Positions 19,738 through 59,653 of a DNA stretch of 64,000 nt are shown one piece after another. A program made the position numbers and the translations under genes. The DNA comes from Bacteroidales bacterium. GTDB taxonomy: Bacteria; Bacteroidota; Bacteroidia; Bacteroidales; P3. Each line of letters begins with the position of its first letter. Position 1 is the first letter of the stretch. Where the stretch lies: positions 1 through 64,000 of the forward strand of contig JAFVCE010000020.1 of the NCBI GenBank assembly GCA_017479385.1, given 5' to 3'. Below the pieces are notes generated by a model. That model made no database searches. It saw only the letters and a list, made by a program, of their open reading frames with translations, and was not told the origin of the DNA.

Positions 19738-19780
19738 CCGAGGCGGCTACTCAGGATTGAGCCGCCTCGAGGTTTTTTGT
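19738..19780 (+). terminator. Intrinsic terminator after the FMN-binding protein gene
   Basis: CGAGGCGGCT (19740-19749) pairs with AGCCGCCTCG (19760-19769) as a perfect 10-bp stem. It is followed by AGG and six T residues on the plus strand. Confidence 0.9.
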
Positions 19781-19898
19781 GGTCAAGGACACAATATTAA
19801 CTAATTAAAACAACTTTATTTTCATAACAAGGCCGCGCAACTCTAACCCGCGTCCGGGCAGTGTCGTGCCCACCACGAGCCAAGTCAGAACCAATACA

Positions 19899-19975
19899 AG
19901 GTCAAAGAGGGGTTAAGGAGGGGTTAAGGTCGTATTAACATCGAAGTTTCAACAAGTTTTCAACAACCTTAAGCA
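19899..19975 (-). repeat. Dispersed repeat, copy E (long form)
   Basis: The plus strand shows GGGGTTAAGGAGGGGTTAAGG, then TCGTATTAACATCGAAG and a tail AACAAGTTTTCAACA...TTAAGC. Copy F at 30727-30803 matches it nearly base for base over about 60 nt. It lies in a convergent gap between two transcription units. Confidence 0.85.
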
Positions 19976-19999
19976 CTTCTCAACACAACTCGAAGCCGA

Positions 20000-22682: not shown

Positions 22683-24433
22683 TGCTCCTCCTTTCCCGAA
22701 ACCGAACTACTGAGCATATTCTTAAGGTTGAGCAGGGCCACCTTAGTCTCGGCAGTGGTTTCGCCAAGGAGCGAAGCAATCTCCTGTGCCACACGCATTT
22801 GCTTCATGATGACACTGTCGGTCGTGGCAATGGTATCAATCTTCACGCGGTCAAGTTTCTTGTCGTAGTTCACCTCGTCGCTAACGTCGGTCATCAACCC
22901 GAAAAGCAGATTTTGCTCGCTCAAGAGGCTCACCGTCAAACTCACATAGCGGTCGGTGGCACCAATATGAAGGCGCTTGTTTTCGGTTCGACGTTTTTGG
23001 GTGAATGAGTTGTAAAATTCGAGCGGTGGGAAAAAGTCGCTCAACGGTCGGCCGGCATTGGCCTCGGGCGAACCCGTCATGCCAAGCATTTTCATGGCTG
23101 TCGCGTTACAGTCGACGATGTTCATATCGGGGTCTACAAGCACCACGCCTTCGGGCGAGTTGCGCACAATATCGATAGCCAAACTCTCGGCTCGTTTGCG
23201 CATATAGGGCAGACATATATCGATATCGGCATTGCCATTGATGACAGCTTTTGCTTTCTCGCGGCAAGAATTGTAGCCACAGGCACCACAGTTCAGTTCG
23301 TCGGCGGCGGTAAACTTGCCAGTGCGGTGCAACACGGCCTCGATTTCCTTGTCAGATACCGGGCGATTTTTCGGCCTGAGGCGGGGATAGGCATGGGCTA
23401 AGGTCGTATTGAGGTCGGGTAAAGGACCAGGGCGACGCGTGGCGAGCTCGTGTTCGACATATTTTTCGACCGAGGTCGAGGCCTCAAGAATGCCGCCTTT
23501 GCTTGCTATTGCACACGGTCCTGCCACGCAACCACCAGCACAGATGTTGGCCTCGATAAACATATGGTCTAAACTTTCGATGTGTTCTAACACCTCGGCC
23601 AGGCGCGCTGCGCCGTCGACAGACATATAGCGGTAGCCTTCGGGCAGCTCGTCGAACGAGCGAATTATGCCACCAGTGATGGGGAAGATTTTGGCACGGT
23701 TAGCAGGAGGCTCGTCGGCGTCGATACTCAGGCGATTTATAGTATTTATATCGATATTATTCTCTTCGAGGAGCTGCATTAATTCGCCAAAAGTGAGCAC
23801 AGCGTCGATACCGTTCTCGCCCGCCTCGCGCTTTTTGGCAATGCAGGGGCCTATGAAAACCACCTTGAGGTCGGGGTCGGAACGACGGAGCATTTTGGCG
23901 TGTGCCACCATTGGGGAATCGACGGGGGCAAGATATGGCAAAGCCTTGGGATAGTACATCTGGATGAGCCAACACACTGCAGGACAAGCCGACGTAATGA
24001 AATTGCGCATCGGCTCGTTGCCACCTGGCAGGGCCGAGCCGGTGCCTTCGGTGGCAGAGAGCAGGCGCTTGTATTCTTCGACCACAGCTTTGGCTCCGAC
24101 GGCAGTTTCTTCGGCCATGACGAAGCCGAGCTTGGCTAAGGCTATGCGGAGCACCGCGAAGTCGCTCTGTTGCAGACTGCTGACAAACGAAGGGGCCACG
24201 CTGGCCGCCACACGGCCGCCACTTTTGAGGAGGGCACGAACCTCGTCGACCTCGCTGTGTTCGAGTTTGGCTTTTTGTGGGCAGATGGATGTGCAGTGGC
24301 CACAAAGTATGCACTGGTCCTCGATTATTTGCGCGTGGTGGTCTTTAACAGTTATGGCTTTGACCGGGCACTCGCGGAGGCAGCGATAGCAGTCTTTACA
24401 TTTTACGGGTTTGAATTCCAGATATTTAGGCAT
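22679..24433 (-). CDS. hydS: Group C sensory [FeFe] hydrogenase with PAS domain (HydS-like)
   Basis: This is a putative H2 or redox sensor. From MPKYLEFKPVKCKDC the protein has 584 residues. It has two ferredoxin-type [4Fe-4S] motifs (residues 12-51) and an H-cluster domain with L1 TSACPAV (148-154), L2 GPCIAKK (195-201) and L3 ANICAGGCVAGP (295-306). A Fes-type domain follows (Cys382, 385, 390, 407; CGACGYNSC), then a PAS domain (about 420-515) and a short C-terminal helix region. The proton-relay Cys of L1 is Ala, as in known sensory hydrogenases. Alternative in-frame starts at 24475 or 24508 would add 14 or 25 residues; I prefer 24433 because family members start just before the first cluster. 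Its linker (338-347) is encoded by a copy of the dispersed repeat. Confidence 0.92.
   Translation of the reverse strand: MPKYLEFKPVKCKDCYRCLRECPVKAITVKDHHAQIIEDQCILCGHCTSICPQKAKLEHSEVDEVRALLKSGGRVAASVAPSFVSSLQQSDFAVLRIALAKLGFVMAEETAVGAKAVVEEYKRLLSATEGTGSALPGGNEPMRNFITSACPAVCWLIQMYYPKALPYLAPVDSPMVAHAKMLRRSDPDLKVVFIGPCIAKKREAGENGIDAVLTFGELMQLLEENNIDINTINRLSIDADEPPANRAKIFPITGGIIRSFDELPEGYRYMSVDGAARLAEVLEHIESLDHMFIEANICAGGCVAGPCAIASKGGILEASTSVEKYVEHELATRRPGPLPDLNTTLAHAYPRLRPKNRPVSDKEIEAVLHRTGKFTAADELNCGACGYNSCREKAKAVINGNADIDICLPYMRKRAESLAIDIVRNSPEGVVLVDPDMNIVDCNATAMKMLGMTGSPEANAGRPLSDFFPPLEFYNSFTQKRRTENKRLHIGATDRYVSLTVSLLSEQNLLFGLMTDVSDEVNYDKKLDRVKIDTIATTDSVIMKQMRVAQEIASLLGETTAETKVALLNLKNMLSSSVSGKEEQ
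23399..23425 (-). repeat. Dispersed repeat, copy J (inside hydS)
   Basis: The plus strand reads TAAGGTCGTATTGAGGTCGGG, the reverse complement of the repeat core. Read in the hydS frame it encodes LPDLNTTLA in the linker between the H-cluster domain and the Fes domain, so the copy has been tolerated where sequence constraint is low. Confidence 0.65.
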
Positions 24434-24540
24434 GGCTGGCGTTTTCTTGTTTTGGTTTTTGTTGGCGTAAAACATCACCTTGCAGCCGTTATGGGTGTTT
24501 GGCCGCACGTAGGAATGGTTTTACTATGGTAGTTAGTGGT

Positions 24541-24840: not shown

Positions 24841-24930
24841 GGCTTGATTGTAGTTTTGAGGTTGGTTGTTTTTGTTTTACTCATTGTTTTACAGTCGATT
24901 ACAGAAAAATTCCTGTTTTGTTCGACTTTG

Positions 24931-24938
24931 CAAAGATA
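24931..24938 (-). promoter_or_regulatory. -7 box of the hydrogenase operon
   Basis: The minus strand reads TATCTTTG, matching TAnnTTTG, 90 nt upstream of the ferredoxin gene. The nearest TTTG is only 11 nt further upstream, so the -33 element is not consensus. Activator dependence is possible. Confidence 0.5.
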
Positions 24939-25019
24939 CAATCTTTTTTCAAATGTGTATTTTTTTATCGATAATTTTATGCTTAATTAATGTTAAATAG
25001 GTTAATAAAATGTTAATTG

Positions 25020-25062
25020 TTCGACCTCAATACGACCTTAACCCCTCCTTGACCCCTCTTTG
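25020..25062 (+). repeat. Dispersed repeat, copy D
   Basis: The core TTCGACCTCAATACGACC is followed by TTAACCCCTCCTTGACCCCTC. It is located between the two divergent promoters. Confidence 0.85.
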
Positions 25063-25195
25063 GTGGGTGGTGGAGGGTGGCTATTTTTTCGATAAAAAGA
25101 TAGCGGTTTTTGTTTATAATCGATAAAATTTGACCTAATTTGAAAAATTTTTGTCGCTGATTTTCAATATTTTACAATCGATAAGAAAAGATTTA

Positions 25196-25226
25196 TTTGG
25201 TAAGTTCGGTTATTTTTGTACTTTTG
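25196..25226 (+). promoter_or_regulatory. Promoter of the abfD-abfT-4hbd-sucD operon
   Basis: TTTG (25196-25199), a 19-nt spacer and TACTTTTG (25219-25226) match the Bacteroidota consensus. Transcription would leave a leader of about 70 nt before abfD. Confidence 0.8.
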
Positions 25227-25300
25227 CACATCGAAAAAGAGAGGTTCGCGCCTCGTTTTGACATTTAAATTTTTAATAACCTCAAAAAAAAGTCTGTCCT

Positions 25301-29269: not shown

Positions 29270-30628
29270 ATGACTGAAATCGAACAAATGATAGCAAAGG
29301 CCCGCGTGGCGCAGGCCATGTATGTACGCCACTTCGACCAAGACGACGTTGACTTGGCCGTGAAGATTGCCACCCACACCATTTATGAGCACGCCGAGGA
29401 ACTGGCTCGCATGGCCGTCGAAGAGACCCAGATGGGCGTCTATGAAGACAAGGTGGCCAAGAACCGCAACAAGTCGAAAGGCGTTTACTGGGACCTTAAG
29501 GGCAAGAAGTCGATGGGTATTCTGAACATCGACGAGCGCACCGGCCTCATCGAGATTGCCAAACCCATCGGCGTGGTGGCTGGCGTCACCCCCATGACCA
29601 ACCCCATTGTCACCCCTATGTCGAAGATTGCCTTCGCCCTTAAGAGCCGCAACGCCATCATCATTTCGCCACACCCCAAATCGCGCTTGTGCTCAGCCCG
29701 TGCTGTCGACCTCATTGTCGAGGCGTTGGCCCAGGTGAACCTGCCCGACGGCATGGTGCAGATTATTCGCGAGCCGTCGCTCGACAAGACACAGGAGCTT
29801 ATGCGCCTCTGCGACGTGACGGTGGCCACTGGCGGTATGCCCATGGTTAAGAGCGCATACAGCAGCGGCAAGCCCTCGTTTGGTGTCGGCGCCGGCAATG
29901 TGCAGGTTATTCTCGACCGCGACATAGACTACACGCTCGCCACTTCGAAGTTGGTTACCGGCCGTTCGTTCGACAACGGCATTATCTGCTCGGGCGAGCA
30001 GAGCTGCATCTACCCCTTCGAGCAGCGCGAGGCTGTGATGGCCGGTTTCCGTGCCAACCACGCCTATGTTTGCTCGGCCGAGGAGCGCGAGAAGATTATT
30101 GCCGCCATTTTCGAGGATGGCCACACGGCTCGCGATGTGGTGGGACAGTCGTGCCAAAAAATTGCCCGCAAGGCTGGTTTCGAGGTGCCCGACGATATTA
30201 AGGTGCTGGTGGTCGAGAGCAACGGCCACTTTGGCCCCGAAGACCCGATTAGCAAGGAGAAGATGTGCCCGGTGATGGGTGCGTTCCCCTACCAGTATTT
30301 CGAGCAGGCCATCGAGATTGCTCAGACCAACCTCAGCTACGAGGGCAAGGGCCACACCGCCGGATTGCACTCGAACAGCCAGGCCAACATCATCAAGGCT
30401 GGTAGCGAGCTGTCTGTGTCGCGCCTGATTGTGAACGCTATTTGCGCCACGACGGCCGGCGGAAGCATTCAGAATGGCTTGCCGGTGACCAACACGTTGG
30501 GTTGCGGCTCGTGGGGCGGCAACTCTATTAGCGAGAATTTTACGTTCAAGCACCTACTCAATATTACCCGTGTGGCTCCGCTGCAGACGCGTATGCGTGT
30601 GCCGAGCGACGACGAGATTTGGGCATAA
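29270..30628 (+). CDS. sucD: CoA-dependent succinate semialdehyde dehydrogenase
   Basis: SucD reduces succinyl-CoA to succinic semialdehyde with NAD(P)H, the entry step of the pathway. The 452-residue acylating aldehyde dehydrogenase has the catalytic Cys240 in FDNGIICSGEQS, PSFGVGAGNVQVILD, and IEIAKPIGVVAGVTPMTNP, matching the Porphyromonas gingivalis-type SucD rather than AdhE. It is the last gene of the operon, and an intrinsic terminator follows. Note that the name sucD is also used for succinyl-CoA synthetase alpha, which this is not. Confidence 0.95.
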   Translation: MTEIEQMIAKARVAQAMYVRHFDQDDVDLAVKIATHTIYEHAEELARMAVEETQMGVYEDKVAKNRNKSKGVYWDLKGKKSMGILNIDERTGLIEIAKPIGVVAGVTPMTNPIVTPMSKIAFALKSRNAIIISPHPKSRLCSARAVDLIVEALAQVNLPDGMVQIIREPSLDKTQELMRLCDVTVATGGMPMVKSAYSSGKPSFGVGAGNVQVILDRDIDYTLATSKLVTGRSFDNGIICSGEQSCIYPFEQREAVMAGFRANHAYVCSAEEREKIIAAIFEDGHTARDVVGQSCQKIARKAGFEVPDDIKVLVVESNGHFGPEDPISKEKMCPVMGAFPYQYFEQAIEIAQTNLSYEGKGHTAGLHSNSQANIIKAGSELSVSRLIVNAICATTAGGSIQNGLPVTNTLGCGSWGGNSISENFTFKHLLNITRVAPLQTRMRVPSDDEIWA

Positions 30629-30686: not shown

Positions 30687-30726
30687 GGTTTCGATATGTG
30701 GCGTGGGTTGATTGTGTGGAATGGGG

Positions 30727-30803
30727 TTGGGTCGGGTTAAGGAGGGGTTAAGGTCGTATTAACATCGAAGAATGAACAAGTTTTCAACAGGGTTAAGCGC
30801 AGT
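30727..30803 (-). repeat. Dispersed repeat, copy F (long form)
   Basis: The plus strand carries GTTAAGGAGGGGTTAAGG, TCGTATTAACATCGAAG and the tail AACAAGTTTTCAACA...TTAAGC. It matches copy E (19899-19975) over about 60 nt, differing mainly in a 4-nt spacer (AATG against TTTC). Confidence 0.85.
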
Positions 30804-30941: not shown

Positions 30942-32648
30942 TCACTGCTGGCGCTTGCCGCCGATGGCTTCGGAGACGTTGATGACGTAGTCGCCCAACT
31001 TTTCGTAGAGGGCATATAGCGAGCTGTAGGCGTTGCCGATGGCGTAGTTGTAGACGCCGAGCTTGACCGCGTCGAGGTGCTGTGCACGAAGCCTGTCGCG
31101 GAAGTGGTTGATTTGGCTTTCGGCCTCGTAGGCCGCGTCGAGGTCGATGTGGTCGTAGTCGTGCAGATTGCGGTCCATAATGTCGAGGGCGTTGCCCACG
31201 AGGGTGCTCATCTGGGCCAAGTTGGCGTTGAGCGTGTCGTCGAAGTGGACGGCATCCTCGCGCTTGTTTTTGCGTGTCATAGCTATTTGGTATACCGTGT
31301 CGCCAATCGACTCGAGGTTGTCTATTATCCTCAACATCGAGCTGATTCGCTCCGAGGCGTGCTGGCTCACGTCGCCGCTGCCCACGCGGGTAAGGAAGCG
31401 CGTAATCTCCATCTCCATACGGTCGGTTATGCCCTCATATTTGGCAATGCGGCTCATGGTGGCGTCGAACTCCTCTTCGCTGCTGGCTGTACGCAGGGTT
31501 GGGAGGAAGGTATACATACGCAGCACGCGCTTCGAGAACTCCTCGATTTCGCTCTTGGCGCTTTGCAGGTTGAGCTCGGCGGTAGAGAGGAGGTTGGGCT
31601 CGATGTAAGTGAGGCGGAACTCCTCCTCGCCCTCTTCGGCCTTGTCGGGCACCATCCACTCAACAATCTTAACTATCTGCGGAATGAAGAAAACCAGAAC
31701 GACCGTTGTGGCGACATTGAAGAGCGTATGGAAAATGGTGATAGCCAGCGGGTAGCGGTGTTGGTTGATGGGGTCGGCCGGGTTGTCGGTAATGCCCGTT
31801 GCGGCCATAATGCCGTTGCAGATGGGAGAAAACAGCAGCAGGCAAAGCAGCACACCAGCCACGTTGAACACCAAGTGGGCCCTGGCAGCGCGACGCCCTG
31901 TGGTGCCGGTGGTCATGGCCACCACCTGCGCGGTGAGTGTGGTGCCGAGGTTTTGGCCCATAACGAGCGACAGCGCCATCGGGAACTCTATCCACCCCTT
32001 GCTGGCCATGAGCAGGATGAGGGCCGTCATGGCGGCCGAGGTTTGCAGGACGATGGTGAGCACGGCGCCCACTACGACAAAGAGCAGCACCGACCAGAAA
32101 CCCCAGTGGCTCCAAGTGGCTATGGTCTGCACCACGCTGTCGCTCAGTGGCGGTATGGCACTCTCGAGCAGGTCCATACCCACCAGCAGCAGCGCCAGGC
32201 CGATGATGGTTTGGCCCAAGTACTGCATACGGTCTTTCTTACTAAAAATGAAGAAGAGGCTCAGCGCGCCGAGAAACATGGGCAGCGAGAACACCACCCC
32301 CTCTTGCGCTCCGCCGAGGCCAAAAAGGGCTATAATCCACGCCGTGATGGTGGTGCCGATGTTGGCACCCATCACCACCGCCACCGCCCCGTTGAGGGAG
32401 AGCAGGCCGGCACCAGCAAAACCCACCACCATGACCGTGGTGGCGGTGCTCGACTGTATTGCGGCCGTCACGGCTGCGCCGGCCGCAATGCCGCTCAAGG
32501 GTTTGCCCGTTATGCGGCTGAGAACGTGGCGCATATTCGAGCCGGCAAACTTTTGCAGCCCTTCGCTCATAAGCTTCATTGCAAAGAGGAAGATGGCCAG
32601 CGCGCCAGCCAAGTTGAGGACTATGCAGATTATATCCCAGGTTGTCAT
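30942..32648 (-). CDS. Na+/phosphate cotransporter family protein with PhoU-like domain
   Basis: The 568-residue inner-membrane protein has two NptA/Na-Pi repeats with the characteristic QSSTATTVMVVGFAGAGLLS and LQTSAAMTALILLMASKGW (QSS-type motifs). About nine membrane helices extend to residue 330, followed by a soluble helical PhoU-like domain. It would import phosphate with sodium or regulate phosphate export. It is a single gene with its own -7 box. YjbB-type exporters share this architecture, so the transport direction is not certain. Confidence 0.93.
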   Translation of the reverse strand: MTTWDIICIVLNLAGALAIFLFAMKLMSEGLQKFAGSNMRHVLSRITGKPLSGIAAGAAVTAAIQSSTATTVMVVGFAGAGLLSLNGAVAVVMGANIGTTITAWIIALFGLGGAQEGVVFSLPMFLGALSLFFIFSKKDRMQYLGQTIIGLALLLVGMDLLESAIPPLSDSVVQTIATWSHWGFWSVLLFVVVGAVLTIVLQTSAAMTALILLMASKGWIEFPMALSLVMGQNLGTTLTAQVVAMTTGTTGRRAARAHLVFNVAGVLLCLLLFSPICNGIMAATGITDNPADPINQHRYPLAITIFHTLFNVATTVVLVFFIPQIVKIVEWMVPDKAEEGEEEFRLTYIEPNLLSTAELNLQSAKSEIEEFSKRVLRMYTFLPTLRTASSEEEFDATMSRIAKYEGITDRMEMEITRFLTRVGSGDVSQHASERISSMLRIIDNLESIGDTVYQIAMTRKNKREDAVHFDDTLNANLAQMSTLVGNALDIMDRNLHDYDHIDLDAAYEAESQINHFRDRLRAQHLDAVKLGVYNYAIGNAYSSLYALYEKLGDYVINVSEAIGGKRQQ

Positions 32649-37221: not shown

Positions 37222-37225
37222 GGTG

Positions 37226-37233
37226 CAAAATTA
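37226..37233 (-). promoter_or_regulatory. -7 box of the SpoU methyltransferase operon
   Basis: On the minus strand TAATTTTG ends 4 nt before the start codon. The transcript is therefore likely to be leaderless or nearly so. Confidence 0.55.
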
Positions 37234-37262
37234 CAAAAAAATCGTCAGACTTGAAAAAAAAT

Positions 37263-37293
37263 TTTGGTAATCCGAAAAAAAGTAGTAATTTTG
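37263..37293 (+). promoter_or_regulatory. Promoter of tRNA-His
   Basis: TTTG (37263-37266), a 19-nt spacer and TAATTTTG (37286-37293) match the Bacteroidota consensus. The mature tRNA starts about 34 nt downstream. Confidence 0.8.
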
Positions 37294-37326
37294 CAGCCGA
37301 TTTCGAGAGTTCGAAATTGGCTAAAC

Positions 37327-37401
37327 GGTGGGCGTAGTTCAGCTGGTTAGAGCGCCAGATTGTGGATCTGGAGGTCGTGGGTTCGAGCCCCACCTCCCAC
37401 C
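37327..37401 (+). tRNA. tRNA-His (anticodon GUG)
   Basis: The cloverleaf has the extra G-1 (37327) opposite C73, typical of tRNA-His. The acceptor is GTGGGCG, the anticodon stem CCAGA/TCTGG closes loop TTGTGGA with anticodon GTG, and the T arm is GTGGG-TTCGAGC-CCCAC. One acceptor pair (C6 against T67) is mismatched. CCA is not encoded. Confidence 0.95.
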
Positions 37402-37409
37402 CGAGGCAG

Positions 37410-37446
37410 AAAAGGACGACAAGAACGAGAGTTTGGTCGTCCTTTT
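37410..37446 (+). terminator. Terminator of tRNA-His
   Basis: AAAAGGACGAC (37410-37420) pairs with GTCGTCCTTTT (37436-37446), an 11-bp stem that ends in a T tract. Confidence 0.85.
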
Positions 37447-37618
37447 GCGTTTGGGGGTAGCTGGCCGCACAAGGGGGCAGCGTGGCACCCAACGGCAACT
37501 TTTGACCGACAATAGAACCTTGGGCTCTTGCAGCACGGCAATCGATAAAGCGAGCAACCCTTTTCGATAAAAATTGTGGCCGCAGCGCGCCTCGTAAGGG
37601 GCTGAAAAACAGTATTGT

Positions 37619-37681
37619 GGTCGGGTTAGGGTCGGGTTAGGGTCGTGTTGAGGTCGAATAAGCCTTGATGTTGAGGCAGTT
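37619..37681 (-). repeat. Dispersed repeat, copy C (G-quadruplex-capable)
   Basis: The plus strand carries GGGTTAGGGTCGGGTTAGGG (37623-37642), four G3 tracts with 3-nt loops. The core TCGTGTTGAGGTCGAATA and the inverted extended flank ending in GCAGTT follow. The flank matches copies A and B in reverse. Confidence 0.85.
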
Positions 37682-37784
37682 AACCCACCTCTACATAGGG
37701 GGTGTTTATCGATAAAAACAGGTCTTTTTATCGAATTGCAGGCGATGGTGTGGCGGTTATTGCCAAACCTTGCGGCCTTCGAAG

Positions 37785-45515: not shown

Positions 45516-48500
45516 TTAACGGAGCACTGTTAGCTTGCGGGCAGGGAGGGTGCCTACTCGCAGCAGGTAGGTGCCCGAGGCGGGGACCTCGAGGGTGAGC
45601 CTCGACTCGGCTTCGGCCACCGAGCGCAGCAGGCGGCCCGCAAGGTCGTAGAGTAACACGCTCTGTCCCAGCGCTCCTTCGACCTCAATACGACCCTGAC
45701 CCGATGTTATCCTGATGTTGAGGCCGTTAGCAGCGTCGATTGCTTGGTTTTCGACCACCACGGTGTCGTGGACGACGATGGTGTCGTACACAACGAGGGT
45801 ATCGTAGAGCACAACAGTGTCGGTAGCGATGTAGATGGTATCTATTCTCTGTTGCCACACCGTGTCGTGCACCGCGCCGGCGCCCGAGGCGAAGTTGGCC
45901 GTGAACTGCGCACTGCCGTTGACGAGCACCAGGCGCGGATTGTCGGTAGCGCCGTCGGCCCAACCAGCAAAGGCGTAGCCCATACGCGGAGCGGCGGTGA
46001 GGGTGGCAACATTGCCCAACGAGTAGCGTCCGCCGCCACTAACCGAGCCCATGTTGGCGTCGTTGGGCGTGGCGGTGATGAGCATATAGCACGAGGGGTC
46101 TTCGGCCATGCGGGTCAGGGAGTTCCAATAGGGCGCGTCTTGGTAGTCTTGAAGTGTTCCGCAGGGCACCATCACCTTGGCGTTGGTGGGCATACGCTCG
46201 AAAGTGGTGGCGGTGATGGTGGGCGGCACCTGAGCTAAAACAAAGATGGTGTCAGGGTTGGTCATACCACTAAAAGCCGCGGCGCCAATGTTAACCACGT
46301 TGGGGCCGATAACAACGCGGCGCAGGGTGGATACATCTTCAAAACATCTGTTGCCAATGCTCTTAACGGTATTGCCCAGCGTGACTTTTGAGAGGCCCGA
46401 CCTACTAAATGCCATGTCGCCTATCTCGGTGAAGGCGCTATCGCCATCGAGGAATAGTACTTCTTGCAAATTGCTGCAGCTATAAAATGCGTATCGTCCA
46501 ACCTGCTTCACACTGCTGGGGATGGTGATATTAGTTAAATTACGGCAGATGCCAAAAGCCTCTTCCCCAATATCTTCGAGCGAATCGGGCAACGCGACGC
46601 TTTCTATATTCATCTCGGCGAATATAGCGGTTGGCAGACTTTTGACGTTAGAACCAATATAGAGGTGTTGCTGGGCAACCTCTATGGAGTCGTATACCGT
46701 TCTCTCGCTTTCATCATCGTAGTATTCCTTATAAGGAGAGGAGGCCCCAAACACATTGTCGTTGTTATGACTGGCGTTGGTGGCGTTATAGTTGATTGTG
46801 GCGAGGGTGGGAATGTTAGCGAAAGCCTCGTTGCCGAGATATTTCATCCGAGGGGGAATGGTAACCTCGGTGAGGCGGGTGTCATAGAAAGCTTTCCCCT
46901 CGATGGTATCTATATTGAGTGGCAAAGTGAGTGTTGTGAGGTTGGTGTCGCCAGAGAAAGCATATCGGCCAATAGTGCGAACCGAATCGCTTATGGTTAG
47001 CGACCGCAGCGCTCTGTTTCTATACAGAAAATAATCGGGCACACTACCATGGTCGCCAATGGTAACGGTGGCGATTGGAGAGCCTTCGAACATGAGTTTG
47101 GGATTATAGTAATACTCATCACTCGACTGCAACGGTGCAAGCTCTGCGTCAAATTCTAACGTAGTGAGATTGGGGCAAGAAGCGAAGGCTTTCTCACCCA
47201 CATATTTTAGGGTATGGGGCAGAGTGAGGCTGGTAAGGCCCGTGCCGTAGAAGGCGCTCGCACCGATGCTGTCGAGGGTTGCGGGAATGGAGAGCTCGGT
47301 GAGGAGGCTGTCGCCAGAGAGCAGTTCCGGGGGGAAATAGCGAACGTGCTCGCCGATGGTGAGTTGAGATATGGGGTCAGTGGCGTATACAGCCTCGTCA
47401 TTTAAACCTATTCTCATTTTTAGTGCGTAGGGCGATATGCTACTACCTGTTCTGCGGCCATATCTATCGTAAGAGTCTGCAGGGGTTACCACATCATAAT
47501 GCAGGGTAGTGAGGTTGGGGCAAGCAAAAGCTTCGGCACCAATATATTTTATAGAATGGGGCAGAGTGAGGCTGGTAAGGCCTGTGCCGTAGAAGGCGCT
47601 CGCACCGATGCTGTCGAGGGTTGCGGGAATGGTGAGCTCGGTGAGGAGACTGTCGCCATTGAGCAAATTGTCGGGTATACGGCGAGCGTGTTCGCCAATA
47701 TTGAAATGGGCAATGGGGGCAATCCAGGTGCCATTATCGACCTCAAACCTGAACGCATCGTATACATAATAACTATCATCATACCTGCTATACGTACCAG
47801 ATACCATGTCCCAATTTACTGTGGTGAGGTCGGGGCAAGCAAAAGCCACATAACCGATATGGCGCACAGAACTGGGGATAGACACCGAAGTGATGCCGCT
47901 TTGACCATAGAAGGCCCATGAGCGGATGGTGGTTACGGTATTGGGTACGTTTACGGCAGTGAGCGAAAGCGAGCCGCCGTTGAGGGTGGTCTTTGCCGAG
48001 TCGGCATAATAGAGGCCGTTTTCGGCATACTTGCACAGGATAACATTATCATAAAAATGAAGATTCCTATCACCACCATATATTACATATATGTTTTTTT
48101 CACCGTAGAACGCATAGCTATCGCAGTACTGTATACTATTGGGCAGCTCAATGCTGTGGATGTTGTTGCAGCCACTGAAGGCGTATTCACCGATTGCAAT
48201 AACGGTGCTGGGAATGTGGATAGAAGTGATGTCGGTGCACCCGGCAAAGGCGCCATCGGCGATGCCGGTGACGGTGTAGGTCACGCCTGCCACCTCGATG
48301 GTGGAGGGGATGTTGATAGCGCCGTGTGGCTTGGTGTAGTCGCCATAGCAACCGTTTGTATTGTCGTAGCAATCGCCCAATGGGGCTACTACGTTGGCTT
48401 TGTAGCCATCGTTATAGTAGACTCGAAAGTAGAGCGAGTCGTAGTGGAACAACGTGTGGTCTGGGTCGAGCCATTCCTGCGAGTAGGCTGTGCCGCCCGC

Positions 48501-48542
48501 GGCAAAGAGCGCCGCGATGATAATGAGCAATCGTTTTGTCAT
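45516..48542 (-). CDS. BspA-like leucine-rich-repeat surface protein with T9SS sorting domain
   Basis: From MTKRLLIIIAALFAAGGTAYSQ (signal peptide) the protein has 1008 residues. It contains about ten or more LRR_5/BspA-type repeats (IGEYAFSGCNNIHSIELP; IGASAFYGTGLTSLTLP), followed by an InlB-type B-repeat-like segment (ITATPNDANMGSVSGGG...YAFAGWADGATDNP). A Thr/Val/Asp linker with repeated DT[IV]V and a type A T9SS C-terminal domain (VLLYDLAGRLLRSV...GTYLLRVGTLPARKLTVLR) complete it. It is probably exported and anchored at the cell surface. A start at 48731 adds residues before the signal peptide and is rejected. The sorting domain contains dispersed repeat copy K. Confidence 0.93.
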   Translation of the reverse strand: MTKRLLIIIAALFAAGGTAYSQEWLDPDHTLFHYDSLYFRVYYNDGYKANVVAPLGDCYDNTNGCYGDYTKPHGAINIPSTIEVAGVTYTVTGIADGAFAGCTDITSIHIPSTVIAIGEYAFSGCNNIHSIELPNSIQYCDSYAFYGEKNIYVIYGGDRNLHFYDNVILCKYAENGLYYADSAKTTLNGGSLSLTAVNVPNTVTTIRSWAFYGQSGITSVSIPSSVRHIGYVAFACPDLTTVNWDMVSGTYSRYDDSYYVYDAFRFEVDNGTWIAPIAHFNIGEHARRIPDNLLNGDSLLTELTIPATLDSIGASAFYGTGLTSLTLPHSIKYIGAEAFACPNLTTLHYDVVTPADSYDRYGRRTGSSISPYALKMRIGLNDEAVYATDPISQLTIGEHVRYFPPELLSGDSLLTELSIPATLDSIGASAFYGTGLTSLTLPHTLKYVGEKAFASCPNLTTLEFDAELAPLQSSDEYYYNPKLMFEGSPIATVTIGDHGSVPDYFLYRNRALRSLTISDSVRTIGRYAFSGDTNLTTLTLPLNIDTIEGKAFYDTRLTEVTIPPRMKYLGNEAFANIPTLATINYNATNASHNNDNVFGASSPYKEYYDDESERTVYDSIEVAQQHLYIGSNVKSLPTAIFAEMNIESVALPDSLEDIGEEAFGICRNLTNITIPSSVKQVGRYAFYSCSNLQEVLFLDGDSAFTEIGDMAFSRSGLSKVTLGNTVKSIGNRCFEDVSTLRRVVIGPNVVNIGAAAFSGMTNPDTIFVLAQVPPTITATTFERMPTNAKVMVPCGTLQDYQDAPYWNSLTRMAEDPSCYMLITATPNDANMGSVSGGGRYSLGNVATLTAAPRMGYAFAGWADGATDNPRLVLVNGSAQFTANFASGAGAVHDTVWQQRIDTIYIATDTVVLYDTLVVYDTIVVHDTVVVENQAIDAANGLNIRITSGQGRIEVEGALGQSVLLYDLAGRLLRSVAEAESRLTLEVPASGTYLLRVGTLPARKLTVLR
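45678..45703 (+). repeat. Dispersed repeat, copy K (inside the LRR gene)
   Basis: TTCGACCTCAATACGACC is followed by CTGACCCG. In the LRR reading frame (minus strand) it encodes TSGQGRIEV, at the start of the T9SS sorting domain. Confidence 0.7.
47214..47322 (-). repeat. Near-identical LRR DNA block, unit 1
   Basis: About 109 bases match 47556-47664 with only a handful of differences, at a spacing of 342 nt (114 codons). The encoded units share LTELxIPATLDSIGASAFYG and GTGLTSLTLPH. Confidence 0.85.
47556..47664 (-). repeat. Near-identical LRR DNA block, unit 2
   Basis: This is the partner of 47214-47322. Such identity within an LRR gene points to recent duplication or gene conversion and can mediate length change by recombination. 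Confidence 0.85.
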
Positions 48543-49767: not shown

Positions 49768-50499
49768 ATGCAAGCACTGCTACTATCGGCTGGATTAGGA
49801 ACGCGCCTGCGCCCGCTCACCGACCATCGGCCCAAAGCGCTGGTCGAGGTGGGAGGCATGACCCTGCTCGAGCGCAACTTGCTGAACCTCAGCCGCCAGG
49901 GCGCTACTCGCGTGGTGGTCAATGTTCACCACTTTGCCAACCAGGTCGAGGCCTACCTCGCCAGCCACCGATGGGGTACCGAAGTGCTGGTGAGCGACGA
50001 GCGGCGCCAGCTGCTCGATACCGGCGGTGCCATAGGCGCCGCCGCACACCTCTTCGAAAGCACGATGAACATTGCCGTACACAATGTCGACGTGCTCTCT
50101 ACCCTGCGCCTGCTCGACCTCGAGCTGCACATGGCCGCCACGGGGGCCGACGCCGTGCTGGCCGTGAGCCGCCGGCAAACCTCGCGACAACTGCTTTTCG
50201 ACGCCAACGGCCACCTGGCCGGCTGGCGCAACGCCGCCACAGGCGAAGAACGTTGGGTCGACGCACCGCAACCGCTCTGCACACCACTGGCTTTCAGCGG
50301 AATAGCGCTCTACACACCCCACCTCGTTGCCCAACTACCCAAGACCGGCCTCCCCTACCCCATAGTGCCCGAACTGCTGCGCTTGGCCCGCACCAACGTC
50401 GTGGTGGCCTACGAACACGCGGCCAGCGAGTGGCTCGACGTGGGCAAACCCGAGACCCTGCCTTTGGCCGAACAATTCATAACCTCTCACCTGCTATGA
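49768..50499 (+). CDS. NTP-transferase-family nucleotidyltransferase
   Basis: The 243-residue protein has the nucleotidyltransferase motif LLLSAGLGTRLRPLTDHRPKALVEVGG at its start and LLDTGGAIGAAAHLF, as in MurU/ManC-type enzymes that make NDP-sugars. The substrate could be MurNAc-1-phosphate (MurU-like cell-wall recycling) or mannose-1-phosphate; the short length without extra domains favours the MurU type. The usual NGD motif is replaced by NVDVLST. It overlaps the next gene by 4 nt. Confidence 0.9.
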   Translation: MQALLLSAGLGTRLRPLTDHRPKALVEVGGMTLLERNLLNLSRQGATRVVVNVHHFANQVEAYLASHRWGTEVLVSDERRQLLDTGGAIGAAAHLFESTMNIAVHNVDVLSTLRLLDLELHMAATGADAVLAVSRRQTSRQLLFDANGHLAGWRNAATGEERWVDAPQPLCTPLAFSGIALYTPHLVAQLPKTGLPYPIVPELLRLARTNVVVAYEHAASEWLDVGKPETLPLAEQFITSHLL

Positions 50500-53291
50500 A
50501 ACCATTCCTGCAAGAAACAGCCGAGCTCATCATGCGCGAGCACCCGACCGACGCCGACCGTGTGGCCGTGGTGTTCAACAACCGCCGTTCGGGCCTCTTT
50601 TTGCGCAAACATTTTGCACAGATTGACCGCACAAGCTTTTTCTTGCCCCAGATAACTGTTATCGACGACCTCGTGGCACGCCTCGGCAGACTCGAGACGG
50701 TGCAACACGAATTCCTGCTCTTCGAACTATACGACATTCACTGCCAGATTGGCGGTCCCGACCGCAAGTATGCCACATTCCAAGACTTCATCTCGTTCGG
50801 CGAGATGATGCTGGCCGACTTTTCGGAGATAGACCTCTACATGGTCGACGCGCGCCAGCTGTTTGCCAACCTCCACGACGACAAGGCCATCGAGCAGTGG
50901 AACGTAGACGGCCAAGCCCCCACCCCGTTCCAAGAGAACTACCTGGCCTTCTACGGTTCGCTCTACCAATACTACGACCTGTTGCGCCAACGCCTCGCTG
51001 CCACAGGCAAAGCCTATTCGGGCATGGCCTACCGCAACGTGGCCGAAAACATAGAGACACTTGTAGACCAGTCGCCTTGGGACTATGTATACTTTGTTGG
51101 TTTCAACGTCTTGTCGCGTTGCGAAGAGGCCATTATCCGCGCCTACTGCAACCGAGGGCTGGGCACCCTGCTCACCGACGGCGACCCCTACTACTACGAC
51201 GACCCACGCCAGGAGGCAGGCCTCTTTCTGCGCCGCCACAGCCGCAACTTTGGCTCGATTGGGCACTACGCTTCGCACTTCGACCAGGGGCGCAAACAAA
51301 TACACATAGTGAGCTGCCCCGAGCGCGTGTTGCAATGCAAGTTTGCTGGCCAACTGCTGAGCCAACACCCCGAATGGAACGACGACAACACACAAACGGC
51401 CATCGTTCTGGCCGACGAGAAGTTGCTCCTCCCCACCCTCAACTCGCTTCCCGAAGAGGTTACCACCGCCAACGTCACCATGGGCTATCCCTACGCCGAC
51501 AGCAACATTCACGAAACGGTGCTCAAACTCTTCGACCTCTATGCTCGCGCACGTGGCCAACGGTTCCACCACACCGAGTTGCTCGACCTGCTGACCGACT
51601 ACCACATAGCCCACCTGATAGGAGGCGCGTCGCTGCGCTCGCGCCTCGCCCGCCGCTTGGCCGCCGACGGCATTGTCTTTGCCAGCTGCGAAACTGCCGA
51701 ACAGCTGCTTGCCGACGAGGGCATAGACCCGCAGGTGCTGCACTTCGTTCTCGGACAAGACCCCACCACGGCGGTCGACGCCTTTTGGGACATCTGCCGC
51801 ACCCTCGCCGCGCGCCTGCTGGCCAACGACAGCCTGCTCAACCACAAGGAGCGCGAAGCCCTCGGCGCTATGGTCGAGATGGCCAACTACCTGGCCGACC
51901 TCCAAGCCGAACACCACGTGGTGACCAACCTCGACACCCTACAGAAAATATACTCGCGCCTCGCCCGACGACACTCTATATCCTTTTTCGGCCAGCCACT
52001 CTCGGGGTTGCAAATTCTCGGTATGCTCGAAACACGCAACCTCGACTTCCGCCGCGTCGTTCTGCTCTCGACCAACGAGGGCACGCTGCCTGCCGGCCGC
52101 ACACCAGCCACCCTCGTGCCTCACGACCTGAAGAAAAGCTTCGGCCTGCCCACCTACCACGAAAAAGATGCCGTCTTCGCCTACCACTTCTACCGCCTGC
52201 TGCAACGCGCCGAGGAGGTATGGCTCGTGTGTAGCACCGAGACCAACGCCAACGGCAAAGGCGAACCCAGCCGCTTCATCATGCAGGTCGAACAAGAACT
52301 GGCCCCACGCTTTGCAGCCAACATCGAGGTGAGCCGCCAGGTGGTCGAGACCGAGTTTGCCCCCACAACGCTACACAGCCGCACCGAGGCCGCCAAAGAC
52401 GACCTGGCACTGCAACGACTCGAAGCCATCAACGCCCGCGGATTCTCGCCCTCGGCGCTGAACAACTACCGCGCCTGTCCGCTCAAATTCTACTTCGAGA
52501 ACGTGCTCGGCATTCGCAAACCCGACGAGGTGAGCGAAGACCTGGACCAGTCTGACCTCGGCACCTGCATACACGAAACCTTGCAGGCAATATTTGCTCC
52601 GGTTCAGGGCCGCCAACTGCAGGCCGACGACCTGCGCACAGCACTCGACAGCCTCGACACCACGCTCCAGGCCCGCTTCGCCTCGCTCTTTAGCGACGGC
52701 CACGCCATCGAGGGGCGCAACCACCTGCTCTACTCCATAGCCCGAACCCAAGTGGCCAACCTGCTGCGGCTCGAACTCGCCGAGCTCGAACAGGGCCGCC
52801 ACATCGACATTATAGGGCTCGAACTACCCCTGCAACACAGCCTCCAGGCCGGCCCCGTGGCGGTGAACCTGGCAGGCATTGCAGACCGCATTGACCGCCG
52901 CGCCGGCGTGGTGCGCATTTGCGACTACAAAACGGGCAAGGTGGAGCCGGCCGACCTCGTTATGACCGACAGCAAATGGCGCGACGGCAAAATGCCCGAC
53001 AAATGGTTCCAGGTAATGTTCTACGCCCTGCTCTACAACCGCACCACGCGCACCACCGAGCCCACCCTCTCGGGCATATACCCTTTGCGCCACCTGGGCC
53101 GCACCTTTATGAGCGCCACCTGGGAGGGCGAAGCCATAATAGAAGAGCCGCTGCTTGACCAGTTCGAGGCCTACGTGGCCGACCTCGCGGCCGAGGCACT
53201 GAACCCAGCCATACCATTCGTGGCCGCCGAGGGCTGCAAAGTGTGCCGCTACTGCCCCGTGCAATACACCTGCCCTAAATCGACAGCCTGA
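50496..53291 (+). CDS. AddB-like PD-(D/E)XK nuclease family protein
   Basis: This protein is probably part of an AddAB-type recombinational repair enzyme. From MKPFLQETAELIMREHPTD it has 931 residues. The N-terminal helicase-like part lacks a clear Walker A, as in AddB. The C-terminal nuclease domain begins GFSPSALNNYRACPLKFYFENVLGI, contains DLGTCIHETLQ and VRICDYKTGKVE (catalytic D and K), and ends with CKVCRYCPVQYTC. Those cysteines plus the one in RACPLKFY form the iron-sulphur staple of AddB nucleases. An extension of the frame upstream to 49971 runs through the nucleotidyltransferase and is rejected. The addA partner is not in the window. Confidence 0.9.
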   Translation: MKPFLQETAELIMREHPTDADRVAVVFNNRRSGLFLRKHFAQIDRTSFFLPQITVIDDLVARLGRLETVQHEFLLFELYDIHCQIGGPDRKYATFQDFISFGEMMLADFSEIDLYMVDARQLFANLHDDKAIEQWNVDGQAPTPFQENYLAFYGSLYQYYDLLRQRLAATGKAYSGMAYRNVAENIETLVDQSPWDYVYFVGFNVLSRCEEAIIRAYCNRGLGTLLTDGDPYYYDDPRQEAGLFLRRHSRNFGSIGHYASHFDQGRKQIHIVSCPERVLQCKFAGQLLSQHPEWNDDNTQTAIVLADEKLLLPTLNSLPEEVTTANVTMGYPYADSNIHETVLKLFDLYARARGQRFHHTELLDLLTDYHIAHLIGGASLRSRLARRLAADGIVFASCETAEQLLADEGIDPQVLHFVLGQDPTTAVDAFWDICRTLAARLLANDSLLNHKEREALGAMVEMANYLADLQAEHHVVTNLDTLQKIYSRLARRHSISFFGQPLSGLQILGMLETRNLDFRRVVLLSTNEGTLPAGRTPATLVPHDLKKSFGLPTYHEKDAVFAYHFYRLLQRAEEVWLVCSTETNANGKGEPSRFIMQVEQELAPRFAANIEVSRQVVETEFAPTTLHSRTEAAKDDLALQRLEAINARGFSPSALNNYRACPLKFYFENVLGIRKPDEVSEDLDQSDLGTCIHETLQAIFAPVQGRQLQADDLRTALDSLDTTLQARFASLFSDGHAIEGRNHLLYSIARTQVANLLRLELAELEQGRHIDIIGLELPLQHSLQAGPVAVNLAGIADRIDRRAGVVRICDYKTGKVEPADLVMTDSKWRDGKMPDKWFQVMFYALLYNRTTRTTEPTLSGIYPLRHLGRTFMSATWEGEAIIEEPLLDQFEAYVADLAAEALNPAIPFVAAEGCKVCRYCPVQYTCPKSTA

Positions 53292-53388
53292 ACCCCACCC
53301 CACCGCCACAACATCCGGCAAACATCTGATAGGCAACGCCTTAGCTTCGAATTTCGATAGAAGAAAGGGCGATTTTTTGCCGATTTGT

Positions 53389-53460
53389 AACTGCTTGAAT
53401 ATCAAGCCTTATTCGACCTCAATACGACCCTAACCCCTCTCTAACCCCTCCTTAACCCTA
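53389..53460 (+). repeat. Dispersed repeat, copy B (type copy)
   Basis: This is the fullest copy: flank AACTGCTTGAATATCAAGCC, core TTATTCGACCTCAATACGACC, then CTAACCCCTCTCTAACCCC and TCCTTAACCC. On the minus strand it has four G3-G4 tracts. It lies in a convergent gap of 248 nt with no gene. Confidence 0.9.
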
Positions 53461-53539
53461 TGTACAAATTGAATATCAGCAACTTACAACCAAAATCAGT
53501 TGCAGGAACCAAAGCAAACAAGAAAGAATAGCAGTGGCC

Positions 53540-54745
53540 TCAATTTTCTGTTCTCAATGCCCCTACGGCCAAGAGCAGGGCGCAGACGCTGACAGCTTGG
53601 GCGCGGTAGGTGAACCACGAGTGGAGGTAGCTGTGGTTGGCCGCCATGAGGTACCAGGCGTAGGGCAACAGGGCCACGACCACGAAGAGCAGCGACTTGA
53701 CCCACCTGCGAGGCGAGAAACGCACCAATGCCACCACGACGAAGGCGGCCAAGATGAGCAGCAGGTAGCTCCAGGGCAGCACTTTGAGGTTGACTGCAAT
53801 GGCGTCGAGACGGCTCCACGACTCGATGTCGGAGGTGCGGTAGCCGATGGTGTTGAAGGCGTCGGCAAAGACATTGTCGGGCAGCACAAGGCTTGCAATG
53901 AGCCATTTGGCGGCCCAAGTGGCTACGTAGGCCACGGCCCATACGGCAGTCAAAACAGCCACGTGGCGCAGCCCACGACGCAAGCCGGTGTCGTTGGGCA
54001 TGAACCAGATGGCGGCGCAGAGCGGCAGGCCGAGGGTGAGCACGGGGGCGGTGAGCAGGTCGAAAAAAGCAGTGAGCGAGCCCGCCACGAGCATCACGGC
54101 CTGTTCGTGGCCCCTGGTTCGGGGCAAGGCGAGGGCGGTGGCAGCCACAACGGCAATGGCCACCACAGGCAGCAGCTGGAGCGAGAACTGGGCGACAAAC
54201 ACCCTGACAGCCAACAGGGCTGCAGCGGCGGCCACCACTGGCAGCCAACCGGCACGCCGCCAGACCACGACGGCTGCCGCAACGAAGAGTAGCGAGCTGA
54301 CGAAGTAGAGCAGGTAGCGTATGGCGGTGTAGTCGAGCGCCAAGAGCAGGCAGCGCGCCACGAAGGTAGAGCCGTGCCAATAGCGGGCATAGCGGTCTGT
54401 GGCCTCGGCGTGGCCGGCAACGAGGTTGGCCAACACCTCGGTCGAGGCGTTGCCGATGGTGGAGTGGCTGTTGCCGAAGGCCGAACGCAGCAGGCTGTCG
54501 CGGCTGCAGAGGTAGGCTTGGTTGAGTATGAGGGCGTCGGTGTAGTTATCGAGCTGGCACTCGGAGCGCGGCATTATGGCGCGCGGATAGTCTGCTTGCA
54601 GGTCGCCACGCTCGAGGGTCTGGACCACATGGCGCTTGACCGGCTCGTCGGGCAGCAGGCAGGCACCGATGGCGAAGAGGCTGTAGGCCACAATGAGCAG
54701 GACTAACAGCAGGGCGAGGCGGGCTATGGGGTTGAGCTTTTTCAT
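53540..54745 (-). CDS. Polytopic membrane protein (DUF6056-like)
   Basis: The 401-residue protein has roughly nine to ten hydrophobic helices, starting with LALLLVLLIVAYSLFAIGACLLP. A conserved loop after the first helix contains DALILNQAYLCSRDSLLRSAFGNS. It resembles GtrII/DUF6056 glycosyltransferase-like membrane proteins that use polyprenyl-linked sugars, but no catalytic motif is certain. It lies 24 nt upstream-to-downstream from the family 2 glycosyltransferase on the same strand, a pairing consistent with glycan decoration. Function is inferred from context. Confidence 0.75.
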   Translation of the reverse strand: MKKLNPIARLALLLVLLIVAYSLFAIGACLLPDEPVKRHVVQTLERGDLQADYPRAIMPRSECQLDNYTDALILNQAYLCSRDSLLRSAFGNSHSTIGNASTEVLANLVAGHAEATDRYARYWHGSTFVARCLLLALDYTAIRYLLYFVSSLLFVAAAVVVWRRAGWLPVVAAAAALLAVRVFVAQFSLQLLPVVAIAVVAATALALPRTRGHEQAVMLVAGSLTAFFDLLTAPVLTLGLPLCAAIWFMPNDTGLRRGLRHVAVLTAVWAVAYVATWAAKWLIASLVLPDNVFADAFNTIGYRTSDIESWSRLDAIAVNLKVLPWSYLLLILAAFVVVALVRFSPRRWVKSLLFVVVALLPYAWYLMAANHSYLHSWFTYRAQAVSVCALLLAVGALRTEN

Positions 54746-59042: not shown

Positions 59043-59059
59043 GGTGGTTTATGGTGCTT

Positions 59060-59105
59060 TTATTCGATGTTAATACGACCTTAACCCCTCCTTAACCCCT
59101 CTTCA
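59060..59105 (+). repeat. Dispersed repeat, copy G
   Basis: The core TTCGATGTTAATACGACC is followed by TTAACCCCTCCTTAACCCCTC. This is the GATGTTAA subtype also seen in copies E and F. It occupies most of the 65-nt gap between yraN and the next gene. Confidence 0.85.
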
Positions 59106-59107
59106 AG

Positions 59108-59653
59108 CTATGCGTAGAGTTGGCGGAGTTCGGCCTTGAGCGAGTCGAGTGCGAGGTCGGTCGGGGTCCCGTTCTTGGTGGCTGTGGCAAAGATGTTGGC
59201 TGCCAGTGTCGAGGGGTCGGTGGTGGGGTCGAGAACGGCACCAGTCGAGTTGACGAGGTTTATCATCTCGTCTTTGGCTTGACGTATTACTGTCCACACT
59301 TCGGACGAGAGGTAGACCTGCTGCGAGAGGTTGTGTTCCCATTCGTCGCGTATGTTCTTGGTCATCACACCCTGCAGCAGTCGCAGGTCCATGCCAGGCT
59401 GATAGCAGCGCAGCACGAGGCTCGAGGGCGAGATGCGCTCGAGGAAGAGGGCCATGCGCTCGTAGGCTTGCAGACGTATGGGGGTGACGGTGCGCAGGGT
59501 TTCGCGGCGCTCGTCGAGCTTCATCTGGAGCAGGGCTTGCTTCTGACGCGAGTCGGCCACGCGGCGCACTATGGCGTAGGCTACCCAGCCCATGATGGCC
59601 ATGGCGGATAGGAGCGAGATTGAGAGGATGAGGATTGTGGCAAGTGGTGTCAT
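59108..59653 (-). CDS. Conserved Bacteroidota membrane-anchored protein of unknown function
   Basis: The 181-residue protein has one N-terminal membrane helix (ILILSISLLSAMAIMGWVAYAIV), then a predicted helical cytoplasmic part with LRLQAYERMALFLERISPSSLVLR-like and EWEHNLSQQVYLSSEVWTVIRQAKDEMINLVN. The QAYERMALFLERI segment is a hallmark of a conserved hypothetical family in Bacteroidota (DUF7935-like, from memory). No function is known. It sits between the sirtuin gene and yraN on the same strand. Confidence 0.8.
   Translation of the reverse strand: MTPLATILILSISLLSAMAIMGWVAYAIVRRVADSRQKQALLQMKLDERRETLRTVTPIRLQAYERMALFLERISPSSLVLRCYQPGMDLRLLQGVMTKNIRDEWEHNLSQQVYLSSEVWTVIRQAKDEMINLVNSTGAVLDPTTDPSTLAANIFATATKNGTPTDLALDSLKAELRQLYA

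Follow-up and report, generated by a model that had tools for sequence, protein, structure and literature searches.

What is a short DNA repeat doing when it recurs about every 9 kb along a bacterial chromosome? The question arises at positions 53,389 to 53,460 of a 64,000-nucleotide stretch of DNA from a Bacteroidales bacterium (hereafter, the window, which is G000:C8:1-64000, G000 being a draft genome of 2.28 Mb in 24 contigs), where an array of short units between two convergent genes is one of 11 copies in the window. The original prediction, made from the letters alone, described these copies as a dispersed, telomere-like family and offered three readings: a mobile non-autonomous element, a chromosome-organisation site, or a transcription-stop signal. 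Of the three, the organisation site fits our results best, being favored by regular spacing, a zone around a copy that is usually free of a second one, in-gene copies distant from the others, and the lack of a fixed orientation. We put at roughly 45% the probability that the copies are chromosome-wide duplex-DNA recognition sites for a sequence-specific protein in a clade of three species, with a role in chromosome architecture or topology.

Extent and anatomy of the repeat

Searching G000 with the repeat pattern at up to 3 mismatches gave 322 matches, against 1 for the reversed pattern, and the enrichment that the original prediction had proposed to look for is thus present (matches do not equal sites here, as overlapping registers of one array are counted separately). 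A weight matrix read over 1,055,606 bp of G000 identified 104 sites, or one per 9.2 kb excluding a foreign stretch described below, a density that would extrapolate to about 250 sites in the whole genome; no match exceeded its threshold in first-order Markov shuffles or in 300 kb of three genus mates. Neighboring matches were merged into one site within 100 bp in G000 and in a sister species, G070, and within 150 bp in another, G106. In the window, both the pattern (11 clusters at up to 4 mismatches) and the matrix (11 sites) recover every copy originally listed, on the strand implied for it and with both orientations represented, and no twelfth was found.

The core of the window copies is CGANSTYAATACGACC (AACACG in the 37.6-kb copy), followed by TAACCC-like units; the repeating unit is 11 bp long (CGACCTCAATA / CGACCTTAACC / CCTCTTTAACC / ...), not 9 bp, and arrays typically run in the order CGACCTCAATA / CGACCTTAACC / CCTCTTTAACC / CCTCCTCAACC. 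The label "telomere-like" is justified only by the resemblance of TTAACCC/GGGTTAA. The two flank subtypes that had been noticed, CGACCTC and CGATGTT, are real, and the main split in the larger sample runs by score. The 53 G000 copies that score at least 75 have about 95 bp in common, and their consensus carries inverted arms on both sides (left arm TAAnTGCcTGAaTATCAAG, short spacer TTGTT, about four 11-bp units, and right arm CTGatTATCAGgca.TTA); the consensus of the 51 lower-scoring copies, 50 of them alignable, is the array only. The arms are loose, with an exact TGA-N3-TCA right arm in 18/53 high-scoring and 8/51 lower-scoring copies. The best-kept part is the interior array, which stands above the ends in conservation, many of its columns lying near the 2-bit limit (103 of the 104 copies aligned, one being too near a contig end).

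This anatomy bears on the first alternative, a non-autonomous mobile repeat akin to miniature inverted-repeat transposable elements (MITEs), moved in trans, with target immunity spacing the copies and selection purging harmful insertions. The shared 95 bp and the inverted arms speak for it, and BOX, Correia, and RUP elements are likewise about 100 bp long, present in the order of 100 copies, and built of inverted terminal arms with variable internal modules. Those elements are unlike the present one in three respects: here the interior outconserves the ends, one in-gene copy was made by substitution, and a spacing rule holds. As a MITE proper the repeat was rejected, the expectation being best-kept terminal inverted repeats where we find a best-kept array core and lower scorers without arms in their consensus.

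Folding of 25 of the 53 high-scoring copies gave mean z scores of -0.07 and -0.37 on the two strands relative to mononucleotide shuffles, and the top 25 covarying column pairs in all 53 form no helix. With neither a fold signal nor helix-like covariation, the repeat looks like a duplex-DNA signal and not an RNA or hairpin. It is correspondingly distinct from repetitive extragenic palindromic (REP) sequences and bacterial interspersed mosaic elements (BIMEs), as which the original prediction had not recognised it. Excerpts of PMC3733652 describe GTAG and CGTC REPs as lying mainly between convergent or unidirectional genes, with some copies inside genes, as is also the case here, and E. coli REPs as gyrase targets. 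The present repeat differs in having no fold signal, in its regular spacing, and in the absence from both G000 and G070 of a Y1/RAYT transposase gene (PF01797, other transposase families not having been searched for); a REP/RAYT reading was dropped on the first and last of these counts, and the linkage to a transposase that had been suggested was not borne out for this family. One Y1/RAYT gene occurs in G106, and all five of the genus mates tested that lack the repeat have the family.

Placement and spacing along the chromosome

Copies strongly prefer gaps between convergent genes. Among gaps of at least 100 bp in G000, 44/51 convergent, 26/174 co-directional, and 5/58 divergent gaps are occupied (counted in the window, C5, C1, C12, and C2, with C3 omitted for its foreign part), and in 530 kb of G070 the corresponding figures are 34/38, 14/117, and 1/49; the enrichment between convergent genes proposed as a check is thus found in both species. 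Genes here and throughout are those of our own codon-usage gene caller. The convergent gap may be either the least harmful place for a copy or the place of its function, between which the data do not separate.

Spacing is likewise far from random: it averages about 9 kb, and a second copy is usually missing from a zone of about 4 kb around the first. For the 66 gap-located copies of G000 (window, C5, and C1), the coefficient of variation of spacing is 0.456 and no spacing falls below 4 kb, as compared with 0.847 (standard deviation 0.091) and 17.2 such spacings when the same number of copies per gap class is placed at random; none of 5000 simulations reached either value. The 51 gap-located copies of G070 gave 0.483 and none below 4 kb against null values of 0.803 and 10.8, again unmatched in 5000 simulations. 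Because no simulation that respects gap class reproduces the observed spacing, the location of convergent gaps alone does not account for it; a layout left unexplained by gene classes is what would be expected of chromosome-organising sites. With convergent copies held fixed, the number of co-directional and divergent copies within 4 kb of another is 1/31 in G000 (16.8 at random; same contigs as the gap counts) and 0/15 in G070 (8.1 at random), showing that these copies avoid both the convergent ones and each other. Convergent gaps that themselves lie less than 4 kb apart (three pairs in G000, two in G070) are never doubly occupied, where 2.2 and 1.6 would be expected, although the pairs are too few to carry weight. 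In 118 kb of G106, the eight spacings between pattern clusters range from 4.0 to 13.4 kb, at a loose threshold and with an opposed pair merged.

Copies in co-directional gaps take no consistent orientation relative to the genes (same to opposite, 12 to 22 in G000 and 10 to 4 in G070). A replication-orientation rule, for which the original prediction had proposed a test, was not adopted: orientation is weakly associated with local GC skew and gene strand in G000 (p=0.006 and 0.005) and not in G070 (p=0.41 and 1), on a chromosome that is not closed.

These observations weigh on two further alternatives. A transcription terminator or 3'-end element, acting through a hairpin or as a Rho site on the C-rich strand, would suit the convergent-gap preference, and the 11-nt period of that strand would be in keeping with Rho. 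We nonetheless regard the transcription-stop reading as very improbable, since some copies fall within coding genes (ftsZ of G070 and folC of G000 among them), fold z is near 0 on both strands, the mixed co-directional orientation leans opposite ways in the two species, and terminators need not avoid each other; an intrinsic terminator in particular was rejected on the missing fold signal and the copies inside coding genes. An operator array for a conventional regulator, such as a response regulator of the OmpR/PhoB family, draws support from the 11-bp head-to-tail period and from OmpR-type domains, which all three species possess; direct repeats of TTAAC at 11 bp are also reminiscent of CtrA and cyanobacterial Pho boxes. 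It is nevertheless improbable: the divergent gaps, which bear promoters, are the rarely occupied ones, the favored convergent gaps contain a promoter for neither gene, and regulation does not predict a spacing rule.

The 11 copies of the window, with strand, setting, and score, are as follows:

70-159, plus strand: arm plus 11-bp array at the start of contig C8, with no gene to the left; high score, 85
5344-5430, minus strand: array with an additional CGACCTCAACA unit, in the divergent gap between a RimP gene (4754-5194, minus) and a polysaccharide-export gene (5711-6529, plus); score 54
13896-13975, minus strand: inside a DegT-type aminotransferase gene (12919-14046, plus), about 110 bp from its 3' end; score 19
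19879-19975, minus strand: convergent gap between gene 19119-19712 (plus) and an Fe-hydrogenase-type gene (20000-21469, minus); score 69
23353-23432, minus strand: inside an Fe-hydrogenase-type gene (22679-24475, minus), between two domains, coding LPDLNTTLA; score 41
25007-25086, plus strand: divergent gap 24841-25300; score 68
30703-30800, minus strand: convergent gap between gene 29270-30628 (plus) and a Na/Pi-cotransporter gene (30942-32648, minus); score 59
37592-37695, minus strand: co-directional gap 37222-37784; high score, 91
45665-45744, plus strand: inside a BspA-type leucine-rich repeat protein gene (45516-48542, minus), near its 3' end, coding SGQGRIEV on the gene strand; score 35
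53388-53490, plus strand: site of the original observation, in the convergent gap between genes 50496-53291 (plus) and 53540-54745 (minus); high score, 95
59050-59129, plus strand: co-directional gap 59043-59107, with the end of the array at about the border of gene 59108-59653 (minus); score 51

By these gene calls, three copies occupy convergent gaps (19.9, 30.7, and 53.4 kb), not four as first counted; two lie in divergent gaps (5.4 and 25.0 kb), two in co-directional gaps (37.6 and 59.1 kb), three inside genes (13.9, 23.4, and 45.7 kb), and one at the contig end (0.1 kb).

Copies inside genes number nine in G000 (scores 10-63) and five in G070 (13-35, one of the five resting on a poorly scored gene call). 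Their scores are mostly low and are slightly raised by the inclusion of in-gene copies with at most 1 mismatch among the matrix seeds. Of these copies, 8/9 in G000 and 4/5 in G070 lie more than 4 kb from any intergenic copy, whereas coding positions drawn at random would do so in 28% and 27% of cases (P=0.00024 and P=0.02); given this distance, in-gene copies tend to occur where the chromosome is otherwise without a site. The Fe-hydrogenase-type gene at 22679-24475 (a Pfam assignment) contains the copy that breaks the spacing rule within the window. Its copy codes PLPDLNTTLAHAYPRL, and the stretch aligns without a gap (e.g., to PAPDAGVSLAYAHPRL) in 19/19 other loci compared, these being the loci fetched out of 59 other genomes with a match, so that this copy arose by substitution without insertion or deletion. 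For the DegT-type aminotransferase, the four PDB alignments examined have at most a one- or two-residue gap at the copy, and the copy in ftsZ of G070 lies in the linker after the FtsZ_C domain.

Some other sequence features of the window may be mentioned here. The BspA-type gene contains an internal 200-bp direct repeat (47180-47379 and 47522-47721, 82% identity), and gene 6567-9104 a 12-bp tandem repeat at 8884-8991, with units like GGCTATGGTTAT that code Gly-Tyr. A TGCAAAGNTAC-type motif, which we take to resemble the Bacteroidetes -7 promoter element, is dispersed at 5242, 32706, 38730, 48940, and 57031, upstream of minus-strand genes in at least 4/5 cases.

Carriers, dialects, and the comparison of related genomes

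In a search of 190 genomes of the family, matches occurred in five, namely G000 (322), G070 (220), G106 (49), G064 (3, all at 3 mismatches), and G037 (1), so that only G000, G070, and G106 carry the repeat in numbers. The G037 match, in a genus mate, is one copy that uses the G000 dialect and lies on a contig of 4,079 bp (G037:C34), the pattern search finding no other in that genome, and the contig is probably a stray in the bin. An order-wide sample of 393 genomes, searched at up to 2 mismatches, yielded G000 and one lone match in G268, and a scan of 84,980 species genomes returned at least 31 stretches, of which those listed all come from the metagenome-assembled genome Bacteroidales bacterium RUI415 (JAIKVZ01), a result that sets no limit to the distribution. 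By GyrA, the nearest relatives of G000 are G106 (89%) and G070 (88%) among the 107 other genomes with a match, of 120; other full-length matches reach at most 79%, and a partial match in G018 (390 residues) is at 83%.

Each species has its own dialect, G070 typically using CCGAACCCTACCCGACCTCAACCCGACCTTAACCCGAACCTAACC and G106, for example, CCGAACCAAGGCCGATGTAAGGCCGACCCAAACCCGACCCGAACCT-like arrays. Three genus mates, G094, G100, and G118, were examined over 100 kb each for an 11-bp array of other sequence; their commonest 11-mers included none, the only arrays being of unrelated short phrases. On contig C7 of G100, itself without the 11-bp repeat (e.g., 13391-20112 and 65364-72563), such arrays are many and strongly clustered, of TTGAACC, CTATAAA, and CTGAAAC types of about 7-8 bp, and share no sequence relationship with the 11-bp repeat. 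A phage link was dropped: viral contigs gave 0 exact-pattern matches, in a search from which own records may have been left out.

Comparison of G000 and G070 through 133 reciprocal best hits between parts of both genomes matched four convergent gaps with a copy, and 4/4 are occupied in both species (one at a low score, 16), each species using its own dialect and a different position within the gap, with the orientation reversed in 2/4. Two matched convergent gaps without a copy in G000 also lack one in G070. At orthologous gaps, then, the site looks as if it were maintained while its sequence turns over. Two co-directional gaps have a copy in G070 and none in G000, with flanks too diverged to define ends. 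Comparing gaps through orthologues of protein P0002 was uninformative, another gene lying downstream at the loci shown.

Taken with the anatomy, these comparisons leave the mobile repeat, in our judgment, rather unlikely. The two gaps occupied in G070 only, the confinement to one clade in our samples, and an insert in FolC (see below) are in its favor; weighing against it are the conserved interior, the Y1/RAYT gene missing from G000 and G070, the Fe-hydrogenase-type copy formed without insertion or deletion, the differences between orthologous copies in dialect, position, and orientation, and the distance of in-gene copies from all others. The layout looks more like that of chromosome marker sites than of a jumping element.

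G000 and G070 differ by a block-wise scrambling of gene order, and a copy lies between the flanking orthologues at 10/19 breaks in gene order against 7/93 non-breaks (in a second count, 8/14 against 5/92). This association may be biology, a shared avoidance of operons, or assembly, and we gave little weight to a reading of the repeat as a rearrangement site, as breaks and copies may both avoid operons and several contigs end near copies. Contigs C1, C5, C7, and C8 each have a copy no more than a few hundred bases from an end, and assemblies may be broken or misjoined at the repeat. Contig C3 has, over its first 98 kb, lower GC, poor codon scores, and 0 copies by the weight matrix where about 11 would be expected at the usual density. 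A second PheT encoded there, 69% identical to the native PheT on C5, marks this stretch as foreign DNA, most likely in a chimeric contig, and the idea of an element-free island was dropped. It also encodes a UvrA-type protein, a BipA-type GTPase, and an HSP70 fragment, and the change in composition lies near a copy at 98.3 kb. The 15 native copies of C3, which include two spacings below 4 kb, were counted in the all-contig spacing tally.

Dialects bring in another alternative, in which the repeat guides DNA uptake or recombination: sites would accumulate by molecular drive as the fragments that carry them are preferentially taken up or recombined, the drive being weak near an existing site and hence producing even spacing, while dialects keep the species apart. 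Over-representation with species dialects is as expected of an uptake sequence. The DNA uptake sequences (DUS) and uptake signal sequences (USS) of Neisseriaceae and Pasteurellaceae have short cores of 9-12 bp. Excerpts from accounts of these systems (PMC7811141, PMC1939737, PMC3630211) show many dispersed copies, species dialects, a relatively even distribution, and copies inside genes, to which the sister-species dialects, the in-gene substitution origin, the even distribution, and the lack of copies in the foreign part of C3 bear a resemblance. Their even distribution was once taken to point to a function in replication, repair, or compaction (excerpts of PMC1939737, citing Karlin et al.) and has been explained by molecular drive (excerpts of PMC7811141). 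The differences are considerable. H. influenzae sites, in the excerpted text of PMC7811141, lie about 1 kb apart on average and often much closer, with 23% of USS10s within 100 bp of another; the present arrays are about 45-95 bp long, occur once per 9 kb, usually with none within 4 kb, and are mostly intergenic. ComEC is present, but in 8/8 genomes, including all five genus mates that lack the repeat. No PilT/PilB-type ATPase (PF00437) scored over the cut-off in any of the 8 genomes, the three carriers included, this motor being the only pilus part searched for, and on that ground a classical uptake sequence was rejected. The broader idea of uptake or recombination guidance we consider unlikely, if the strongest of the competing explanations.

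A candidate system of chromosome sites

Each known kind of element tested thus fails on some tested feature. A literature search recovered no report of this element or of a bacterial repeat with such a spacing rule, most subscription journals being outside its coverage, and we know of no bacterial site family with this layout. In the literature consulted, uptake sequences with their relatively even distribution come closest as a published idea. The matS, parS, Noc, and SlmA sites are, like this repeat, dispersed duplex protein-binding sites laid out on the scale of the chromosome; they are short and less numerous, and their placement is restricted or graded, where here some 250 sites (as extrapolated) follow one another in fairly regular steps and are tied to convergent junctions. 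In the portions of PMC8360656 that bear on this point, positive supercoils and yeast cohesin accumulate between convergent genes, and both cohesin and GapR at positive supercoils share with the repeat an accumulation at convergent gene ends, with the difference that transcription and supercoiling position the protein there and a repeated DNA sequence marks the place here.

On our preferred reading as protein recognition sites, each site would be a head-to-tail array of a few 11-bp units, close to one helical turn, so that molecules of a predicted protein could sit side by side on the same face of the helix, flanked in many G000 copies by palindrome-like arms of the TGA-N3-TCA type. The cell would need about one site per 4-15 kb, and sites would be kept where they do least harm, mostly in convergent gaps, then in co-directional gaps, then at tolerant places inside genes, with protein and site presumably co-evolving. 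Their job might be to mark or anchor domains of about 9 kb, or to load a factor where convergent transcription piles up positive supercoils.

Several observations weigh against this reading. Everything here rests on sequence statistics, draft assemblies, and our own gene caller. No binding protein for the array was found, and no OmpR-type domain count is specific to the clade (2-3 in each of the three carriers, 1-3 in five genus mates); moreover, the genus mates sampled live without the repeat. The FolC of G000 has about 24 additional residues at its copy, an in-frame insert from which it would follow that arrays also enter genes, or grow within them, in frame. Spacings below 4 kb occur in 5/98 cases in G000 when all classes and contigs are counted (1538, 1654, 2839, 3474, and 3647 bp, the shortest separating two high-scoring copies on C3) and in 1/50 in G070 (2610 bp), and in G106 two opposed copies lie about 100 bp from each other. 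Long intervals also exist in G000 (26.5 and 24.2 kb on C1, 22.4 kb on C12), the longest of which contains two genes of more than 11 kb, and on C2 neither the first 28 kb nor the last 18.6 kb contains a copy, very long genes being present in these stretches.

Were guidance of uptake or recombination the correct explanation, that idea would extend to Bacteroidales lacking the usual type IV pilus motor. In the favored case of recognition sites with an architectural role, we tentatively suggest, as a more specific and less secure proposal, that they form a chromosome ruler: about 250 sequence-coded anchors, one per roughly 9 kb and mostly at convergent junctions, read by a dedicated, fast-evolving, predicted DNA-binding protein, having arisen in one small Bacteroidales clade and been re-dialected in each species. 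If true, such a ruler would be a DNA-encoded counterpart of the convergent junctions at which cohesin gathers in yeast. For decades, bacterial chromosomes have been inferred to contain domains of about 10 kb, and to our knowledge no sequence that sets them has been described. The regular spacing, the zone usually free of second copies, and the in-gene copies in stretches that otherwise lack a site would make the question of what sets such domains directly testable, with the dialects of three sister species as natural controls and the repeat-free genus mates to show what changed when the system arrived.
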